Below, one piece after another: positions 18,501 to 38,848 of a DNA stretch of 38,848 nucleotides (its first letter is position 1; each line of letters starts with the position of its first letter). Position numbers and translations under genes: made by a program. The stretch comes from a bacterium (lineage in GTDB: Bacteria > Patescibacteriota > Minisyncoccia > Minisyncoccales > JAGGXC01): the NCBI GenBank assembly GCA_021157625.1, contig JAGGWD010000001.1:1-38848 (forward strand), read 5' to 3'. The notes under the pieces are model-generated. The model was given only the letters and a program-made list of their open reading frames with translations, did not search any database and had not been told where the DNA came from.

Positions 18501-18920
18501 TTATTTCTTATCTTTTTCATCACTCAAAACACCTCTTTTTATCTCTTTAATTTCAACTTTTTTGGGCTTAATTTCCTTTTCCAAATATTCTAATGCTTTC
18601 TCGGGTTGGGAGTGATCACCGCAAGTAAAAATGTCTACGGCTAAATAATTATATTCTGGCCAATAATGCAAAGCAATATGACTTTCTGCTAGCAATACAA
18701 CTCCCATTATTCCTTGAGGCCAAAACTTATGAACAGCAACCTTTAATGGAGTATTGTTGGCTTCTTTTGAGGCTTCAACCAAAAGCTTTTCCATCTCTTC
18801 CTTATCATCAATATTTTTCCCATCCCAAAATTCGGCAATCAAATGAACCCCAGCATATTTTACTGTTTTATGAGAAAATTGATTGTTCCACAAAATAGAA
18901 CTCTTTGTTTTTTTGATCAT
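18501..18920 (-). CDS. speD: SpeD-family pyruvoyl-dependent decarboxylase (AdoMetDC-like)
   Basis: HKFWPQGIMGVVLLAESHIALHYWPEYNYLAVDIFTCGDHSQP; ATG 18920 preferred over track TTG 18935. Confidence 0.9.
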   Translation of the reverse strand: MIKKTKSSILWNNQFSHKTVKYAGVHLIAEFWDGKNIDDKEEMEKLLVEASKEANNTPLKVAVHKFWPQGIMGVVLLAESHIALHYWPEYNYLAVDIFTCGDHSQPEKALEYLEKEIKPKKVEIKEIKRGVLSDEKDKK

Positions 18921-19027
18921 ATTGATTGAAGCCAATTGCTTAGTCTCTATTTTTGAAAAAATAGAGACCTCTTATTTCTCTTTCAAGAAATAAGAAAAAA
19001 CAAAGAGCGAAACAAAAAGCAATTGGC
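18901..19027 (-). promoter_or_regulatory. Structured speD leader RNA, candidate cis-regulator
   Basis: Outer stem 18931-18941/19017-19027 (11 bp), hairpins 18943-18968 and 18971-18994, cross-pairing 18901-18913/18995-19007 (13 bp). Confidence 0.65.
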
Positions 19028-19054
19028 AGTTAATTTCTTTAAATACTCAACCTT

Positions 19055-19083
19055 TTTTTATCACAAAAATAAATATGGGTCAA
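19055..19083 (-). promoter_or_regulatory. Putative speD promoter
   Basis: TTGACC (19083-19078), 17 nt, TAAAAA (19060-19055). Confidence 0.5.
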
Positions 19084-19110: not shown

Positions 19111-19791
19111 TTATTCAATAATCTTTTGATGTTTCTTTCGCCACTCTTGAATTCTTTTGTGATCTCCGGAAAGTAACACTTTAGGGACTTTCCATTCTAC
19201 TCCTTTTTTGGGAGAAAACACGGCTGGTCTTGTATACTGAGGATATTCAATAAACCCTTTTTCTTTTTTGCCTTTCGTTAAAGCTGTTCTTTCTCTAAGG
19301 AACTCTTTTTTTCCTAATACTCCAGGAATTAATCGGGCCACTACTTCAATCACTACCATAGCTGGCAGTTCTCCTCCCATTAAATCATAATCTCCTATAG
19401 ATAATTCCATGTCTGCAAGATATTTGGCTACACGCTCGTCTACTCCTTCATACCGGCCACAGATAAAGATAATCTGATTTAACTTCGACAACTGATATGC
19501 AATTTTTTGAGTAAATTTTTTTCCACGGGGAGTAAAAAGAATAACTTTTCTTTTCTTCCTTTTAGGAATACTCTTTATCGCTTTATATATAGGTTCAATC
19601 TTCATCACCATCCCAAACCCTCCTCCAAAAGGCCGATCATCAACTGTCTTTCTTCTATCAGAAGTAAAATCTCTTAAGTTATGAATTTCTACTTTAATCA
19701 ATTTCTTTTTTATAGCTTTGTTTATAAGCGACTCTTTAAAGTAAGAGTCAAAAATTTTAGGAAATATAGTTATTATATCGAATCTTATCAT
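19111..19791 (-). CDS. trmD: tRNA (guanine37-N1)-methyltransferase
   Basis: MIRFDIITIFPKIFDSYFKESLINKAI, DDRPFGGGFGMVMK, CGRYEGVDERV, SIGDYDLMGGELPAMVVIE. Confidence 0.96.
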   Translation of the reverse strand: MIRFDIITIFPKIFDSYFKESLINKAIKKKLIKVEIHNLRDFTSDRRKTVDDRPFGGGFGMVMKIEPIYKAIKSIPKRKKRKVILFTPRGKKFTQKIAYQLSKLNQIIFICGRYEGVDERVAKYLADMELSIGDYDLMGGELPAMVVIEVVARLIPGVLGKKEFLRERTALTKGKKEKGFIEYPQYTRPAVFSPKKGVEWKVPKVLLSGDHKRIQEWRKKHQKIIE

Positions 19792-38139: not shown

Positions 38140-38848
38140 AAATAAATTGATCCATCCCCAGGTTCCCCTAGGGATGCCTTGTTACGACTTCGTCCTAATC
38201 ACTAGCCCTACCTTGGGCCCCGGCAAAGCGGGGACTTCGGGTATTGCTAGCTCTTCTGACGTGACGGGCGGTGAGTACAAGACCCAGGAACGTATTCATC
38301 GCCACATGGCTGATTGGCGATTACTAGCGATTCCGGCTTCATGGGGTCGAGTTGCAGACCCCAATCCGAACTGGGACCGGCTTTTAGGGATTAGCTCCGC
38401 CTTACGGCTTCGCAACCCGCTGTACCGGCCATTGTACCACGTGTGCAGCCCAGGGCATCAAAGGGCCATGCTGATTTGGCGTCATCCCCACCTTCCTCCC
38501 GATTGTCTCGGGCAGTCCTCTATGACACGTGAAACATAGAGTAGGGGTTGCGCAGGTTTCCCCATTTAAGGGAGCACCTCACGGCACCTGCTGACGACAA
38601 CCATGCAGCACCTGTGCTAGTGTCCGTGTGGAATCTCTACCTTTCAGTAGAGTTTCACTAGCATGTCAAGCCCTGGTAAGGTTCTTCGGTTATTATCGAA
38701 TTAAGCCACATGATCCACCGCTTGTGTGAGCCCCCGTCTATTCCTTTGAGTTTCACCGTTGCCGGCGTACTTCCCAGGCGGGGCACTTAACGCGTTAGCT
38801 TCGCCACTGCAAGGGTCGACACTTGCAATAGCTAGTGCCCATCGTTTA
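38140..38848 (-). rRNA. rrs: 16S ribosomal RNA, 3' portion (5' end beyond window); 3' terminus approximate
   Basis: Conserved 16S segments in reverse complement: AAGTCGTAACAAGG, TGYACWCACCGCCCGTC-like TGTACTCACCGCCCGTC, AAACTCAAAGGAATAGACGG, TAAACGATGGGCAC. Confidence 0.97.

Follow-up and report, generated by a model that had tools for sequence, protein, structure and literature searches.

A candidate regulatory RNA at the start of speD

Does the leader of speD in a Minisyncoccales bacterium contain a regulatory RNA that extends into the codons of the gene itself? The gene, which encodes S-adenosylmethionine (SAM) decarboxylase, lies on the minus strand of the 38,848-nucleotide stretch analyzed here (contig JAGGWD010000001.1 of assembly GCA_021157625.1, hereafter the window), which is number 19 among the 22 contigs of a 610-kb genome. 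Between trmD (19111-19791) and the 139-residue speD frame (18920-18501), a preliminary description based on the sequence alone had proposed a closing stem (P1), two internal hairpins (P2 and P3) and a 13-bp helix (S2) joining the leader to codons just after the AUG. All of these pairings are correct in position on the minus strand (Table 1). The strand order, P1 5', S2 5', P1 3', S2 3', bears out the proposed crossing of the two helices, which have no strand in common, and relatives keep this architecture. We consider it likely that the element is a conserved cis-regulatory H-type pseudoknot of speD whose folding shuts off translation of SpeD, and it probably controls the amount of SpeD.

Table 1 Coordinates of the element, its gene and its putative promoter in the window
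Feature	Position	Strand	Remarks
Putative promoter, TTGACC-17-TAAAAA	19055..19083	-	from sequence
P1 5' strand, GCCAATTGCTT / GCCAAUUGCUU	19017..19027	-	pairs with 18931-18941, 11 bp
L1, uridine-rich loop 1, UUUGUUUCG	19008..19016	-	candidate major-groove third strand; U-rich in 35/35 leaders, 3-11 nt
S2 5' strand, CTCTTTGTTTTTT / CUCUUUGUUUUUU	18995..19007	-	non-coding; pairs with 18901-18913; near-invariant across 28 genera
P2, internal hairpin in L2, 9 bp	18971..18994	-	from sequence; variable between genomes
P3, internal hairpin in L2, 11 bp	18943..18968	-	from sequence and folding; variable between genomes
P1 3' strand, AAGCAATTGGC / AAGCAAUUGGC	18931..18941	-	pairs with 19017-19027
L3, loop 3 holding the AUG (18920-18918)	18914..18930	-	12-17 nt in nearly all members
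S2 3' strand, AAAAAACAAAGAG	18901..18913	-	within codons 3-7; exact complement of S2 5' strand, 13 bp
P5, coding-sequence hairpin UUCUAU / GUGGAA	18886..18900 (18900-18895 with 18891-18886)	-	directly after S2
speD, S-adenosylmethionine decarboxylase, 139 aa	18501..18920	-	Pfam AdoMet_dc E 1.1e-36; N-terminal extension encoded by the RNA element

Conservation and covariation of the element

A search of 247 genomes of the same order recovered SpeD homologues from 65, and the same architecture stands ahead of speD in about 36 other genomes belonging to 28 genera and 16 families of that order; the sequences come mostly from metagenome assemblies. We aligned and compared 35 speD leaders and computed covariation on 28 aligned sequences. 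Once the loci had been oriented, most close SpeD homologues shared the order P1, L1, S2 5', hairpins, P1 3', L3, S2 3', P5, the last being a third conserved helix that adds to those listed in the preliminary description. In relatives P1 is commonly GUUAAUCGCUU/AAGCGAUUAAC, the S2 5' strand CUCUUUGUUUUU meets AAAACAAAGAG in the codons right after the AUG, and P5, in the codons following S2, reads GAUCCAUxxxAUGGGUC. The S2 codon ACA follows the start codon at a distance of 3-4 codons in 34 of 35 genomes and of 7 codons in the remaining one (G169).

Absence of covariation in homologous leaders had been set beforehand as refuting the proposal. What we found is that 99.3% of P1 cells are paired, with two-sided, compensatory changes at 8 of 11 pairs, and that S2 is kept in 28 genera. 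None of 500 shuffles reached the covariation score of the whole structure, and sliding the partners by 1-3 columns lowered pairing from 91.5% to at most 56%. In this alignment family f44 is shifted by two columns, so that S2 is somewhat understated. P5 is paired in 86% of cells; one of its pairs shows two-sided changes and the others one-sided ones. Covarying helices in the homologous leaders of one gene, the criterion for a conserved cis-regulatory structured RNA, are thus present, and this comparative evidence is decisive for the reality of the element.

The window by itself contributes further evidence. Folding of the 154-nt leader gave z = -5.9, with none of 200 dinucleotide shuffles as low, and its nested minimum free energy (MFE) structure uses S2. 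A complement of at least 13 nt between leader and early coding sequence arose in 2 of 4000 dinucleotide shuffles; among the other 30 genes of the window the longest such complement is at most 10 nt. P1 judged on the window sequence alone is unremarkable (8 of 300 shuffles reach at least 11 bp).

The two internal hairpins are present where they had been described but proved to be the variable part of the element: they number 1-5 per genome, differ in sequence and are missing from G085, and were for these reasons rejected as its functional core. G085 keeps only P1, L1, S2 and L3 (AAUCGCUUUUUCCCUCUUUGUUUGAGCGAUU, then AACAAAGGGG past the start); its S2 is wider, with pairing kept via C-G and U-G pairs, and to judge by the sequence this form is a minimal classical H-type pseudoknot.

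RNA-level constraint on the first codons of speD

The part of the element that lies in the gene is constrained at the level of codons. All 35 genes use AAG for the lysine in S2, a codon that makes up 24% of the lysine codons elsewhere in these genes, and ACA occupies its place in S2 in 32 of 35, compared with 16% among threonine codons in the same genes (binomial p ~1e-22 each, with genes treated as independent and relatedness uncorrected). This bias supports the earlier proposal of a helix that takes in the early codons. The encoded product is a conserved Lys/Arg-rich N-terminal peptide, KTKRSIxW. At the start of speD in G169 (locus L024), a long in-frame insertion in the P5 loop leaves both P5 arms intact and gives SpeD an extra peptide. 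Copies of speD without the leader element are also without the N-terminal extension, and G170, which retains the coding half and not the leader half, looks from its sequence like a remnant.

Could the block reflect nothing but conservation of the SpeD N-terminal extension, with chance hairpins in AT-rich DNA? The S2 3' strand and P5 are indeed coding, and AT-rich sequence gives frequent stems, but the complementary strand is conserved in the non-coding leader, P1 covaries outside the gene, synonymous codons are fixed, and the extension is missing where the leader element is. This explanation is hardly credible, being already contradicted by the P1 covariation and the codon constraint.

The element might instead dock a protein, perhaps SpeD or a ribosomal protein, or sense temperature, with no small ligand involved; we regard this as quite unlikely. 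It would account for the Lys/Arg-rich peptide, for the rpsU-like genes seen upstream in several genomes (by eye, unprofiled) and for the A-U-rich S2. The upstream genes differ, however, being trmD in the window and SpeD-like elsewhere, while speD is constant. RNA is favored over peptide as the conserved entity because the extension codons are fixed beyond their amino acids and because G169 keeps the stem despite its interrupted peptide.

Loss of the anti-Shine-Dalgarno sequence and the level of control

How might such a structure act in these cells? The 16S rRNA 3' end of this genome (window 38140-38200, minus strand) reads GGAUCAAUUUAUUUU / GGATCAATTTATTTT in place of GGAUCACCUCCUUU / GGATCACCTCCTTT, so that the anti-Shine-Dalgarno (anti-SD) sequence is lost. 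CCUCC or ACCUC is missing in 18 of 19 carriers with a readable 16S tail, and the tails varied (loci L118-L139); a non-carrier of the same order (G176) has the canonical 16S end. The loss also occurs without the element: G002, of the same family, has neither the element nor an anti-SD. An SD-like motif precedes 4 of the 31 window genes and is absent from 31 of the 35 speD leaders. In SD-less initiation, translation is allowed by a local lack of structure at the start codon (PMC3121790). Because the 16S rRNA of nearly all readable carriers lacks the anti-SD, the start codon is a natural control point for occlusion, and since these bacteria have largely lost that sequence, openness of the start region should decide initiation.

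The putative promoter noted earlier, TTGACC-17-TAAAAA, is found at 19083-19055, and a congener (G001) keeps it as TTGACT-17-TAAAAA. An own promoter is not general for the element, because in many other genomes P1 begins at most ~30 nt from the upstream stop codon; the element is thus often placed immediately ahead of speD within what looks like an operon. Inspection of the leaders by eye found no intrinsic terminator: the stretch from the P1 3' strand to the AUG has no hairpin with a run of U after it, and S2 ends inside the gene. The in-operon position and the lack of a terminator suggest translation as the level of control.

In the mechanism that we favor, P1 would form within the leader and S2 would pair the leader with codons 3-7, leaving the AUG in the short L3 between the two helices, with the U-rich L1 lying as a third strand in the S2 major groove. 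The folded pseudoknot, possibly clamped by a ligand, would be the OFF state, in which the ribosome is blocked from the AUG and no SpeD is made. With S2 open, the A/U-rich start region would be single-stranded and translation would proceed. The likeliest input would be pathway feedback, a polyamine or decarboxylated SAM (dcSAM) stabilizing the pseudoknot or its triplex.

One pseudoknot or two alternative folds

The long form of L1 together with two flanking P1 uridines is UUUUUGUUUC, the mirror of the S2 5' strand. Its direction is parallel to that of the S2 purine strand AAAAACAAAG and its register is Hoogsteen (U.A-U), giving each member 4-10 possible triples; this suggests that L1 and S2 may form a triple helix. 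Added separately, the stabilities of P1 (~-12 kcal/mol) and S2 (~-10 kcal/mol) are similar; energetically, the RNA could therefore be either a pseudoknot or a bistable switch.

Several observations weigh against a pseudoknot that controls speD. S2 varies little and shows few compensatory changes, so its predicted pairing rests more on exact complementarity, invariance and codon bias. In family f44, S2 shrinks to 6-10 bp. Some L1 loops have only 3-5 nt, and the case for the triplex is one of sequence only. The two helices might be alternatives that do not coexist. Finally, the genus of the window (G000, G001) has speD and no detectable spermidine synthase (PF01564) or BpsA (PF01861).

The fourth of these points amounts to a bistable switch without a pseudoknot, in which P1 (ON) and S2 (OFF) would be mutually exclusive, as the preliminary description had also envisaged. 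In most members, folds with P1 alone and with S2 alone differ by only a few kcal/mol, and the nested MFE of the window leader, as noted, contains S2. We nevertheless hold this switch to be unlikely. P1 and S2 do not compete for a strand, and the pseudoknot is favored because loop lengths are kept in the H-type range (L3 of 12-17 nt, L1 short and U-rich) and because G085 retains just P1, L1, S2 and L3. From these features we infer that P1 and S2 both form in one molecule.

Identity of the gene product

The assignment to the SpeD family holds: besides its AdoMet_dc match, the product scores 134 bits against the AdoMet decarboxylase equivalog NCBIfam TIGR03330 (cut-off 75.65). Because the gene passes this cut-off, arginine sensing by the leader, one of the suggestions made earlier, is not favored. 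Neofunctionalized SpeD decarboxylases acting on arginine or ornithine have been described, with speD lacking speE singled out (PMC10407285). The genus of the window is such a case, which keeps this reading of the gene alive; it is not favored, because the window SpeD exceeds the AdoMet decarboxylase cut-off and the second, upstream SpeD-like gene of relatives does not.

Distribution and genomic context

A covariance model of the element, R1, was used to scan 247 genomes of the order, 387 of the class and 290 of the phylum. It matched 38 times at E <= 1.8e-4, always at speD and in 37 of the order's 247 genomes; these matches include one remnant and one at a contig end (in G215, where the element is cut off and the truncated speD lies at another contig end). 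No convincing match was found outside the order in the 387 class and 290 phylum genomes, and the element is absent from 25 speD loci of other lineages. The weak matches away from speD that were inspected (G263, G519, G513, G420, G311, G278, G135 and G166:C1) were set aside as chance, since none has the full P1/L1/S2 core. A mobile or repeated palindrome was likewise rejected, the element being single-copy in its own genome and present once per speD gene elsewhere.

Carriers cluster on a SpeD tree of few columns, with 9 label changes compared with ~19 in shuffles. An old element with losses, from one origin or more, would suit this clustering.

The genes downstream of speD include, in most carriers, one for spermidine synthase or for a BpsA-like branched-polyamine synthase; G214 has an agmatinase-family gene there. 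BpsA-like genes lie beside speD in small genomes, by profile in G091 and G054 and by similarity seen by eye in G096, G171, G134 and G042; the BpsA family is mostly known from thermophiles. A second, divergent SpeD-family gene directly precedes the element in G037, G086, G087 and G036 (loci L006, L009, L011 and L018) and lies downstream of speD instead in G095 (L007). The copy in G087 scores below the AdoMet decarboxylase equivalog cut-off, and these second genes are perhaps SpeD-derived arginine or ornithine decarboxylases, neofunctionalized as in PMC10407285.

Relation to known RNAs and candidate ligands

No Rfam family (release 15) matches the element: a search of the window at the gathering threshold reported no SAM family, nor did permissive E-values applied to the window element and 15 other loci, and hits to the element were chance only, in keeping with the earlier impression that this is no described riboswitch class. 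Nor did we find a description of such an RNA in the open-access literature. The element is new in the sense that it is absent from Rfam release 15 and from the open-access papers searched.

Its closest likeness is to H-type pseudoknots in which loop 1 is the third strand of the second helix. In the telomerase RNA pseudoknot, which is of this type, a U-rich loop 1 makes U.A-U triples with stem 2, on its A-rich strand, as L1 of the element may do with S2; telomerase RNA is, however, eukaryotic and no mRNA leader, and no homology is implied. Translational control in the same pathway is known from eukaryotes, where the AdoMet decarboxylase upstream open reading frame stalls ribosomes and the antizyme pseudoknot directs +1 frameshifting, both in response to polyamines; the mechanisms differ, again without homology. 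Among bacterial RNAs, SAM-V and SAM-II share with the element two crossing helices; their loop-1 strand occupies the major groove of helix 2, where the candidate triples would also put L1. SAM-V holds SAM in a U:A.U triple, and its folded state blocks initiation (PMC6061858); it thus resembles the element in acting on translation, which we infer for the element, and in being tied to SAM metabolism. Unlike them, the element stays below the Rfam covariance-model thresholds with no SAM family match, has an S2 of 13 bp whose 3' strand is coding and away from the Shine-Dalgarno region, and would have no Shine-Dalgarno sequence to occlude in the 31 leaders without such a motif. It also carries its hairpins within L2, whereas P3 of SAM-V follows P1, and it belongs to speD. 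The spermidine riboswitch, a SAM-I variant on speD, speE and speB genes (PMC10853860), is likewise a cis-element of polyamine genes with end-product OFF control, as proposed here, but it has a SAM-I-like aptamer; the element has no SAM-I clan match and a different architecture.

The SAM-V and spermidine precedents, together with the exclusive link to the SAM-consuming step of polyamine synthesis and the Hoogsteen register of the U-rich L1 with the S2 A-tract, speak for a true metabolite riboswitch, in which the L1/S2 triplex would bind dcSAM, SAM, methylthioadenosine (MTA) or spermidine and lock the OFF state. This would be a specific form of the translational pseudoknot and does not exclude it; we put it just short of an even chance. 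Against it, no consensus for a binding pocket is seen outside the tracts of U and A, the length of L1 varies loosely from 3 to 11 nt, repression by SAM of the enzyme that consumes it would be odd, and polyamines stabilize RNA non-specifically. Feedback by a polyamine or dcSAM is plausible, a pathway product being preferred because SAM repressing its consumer is less logical. More tentatively, we suggest that the element may represent a new class of riboswitch. Its ligand, a sulfonium compound or a polyamine, would clamp a pseudoknot with a long U.A-U triple helix, the first codons of the gene forming the second helix, and would gate SD-independent initiation in cells without an anti-SD.

The element is a conserved structured RNA from uncultured, reduced, Parcubacteria-type bacteria, in which gene regulation is little known, and exemplifies probable translational control where cells have no anti-SD sequence. 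Being small and self-contained, as the minimal G085 version illustrates, it makes ligand binding and the candidate triplex directly testable. As a regulator it would occlude the start codon, and its second helix reaches into the gene, where synonymous codons are fixed and the protein gains an N-terminal peptide.
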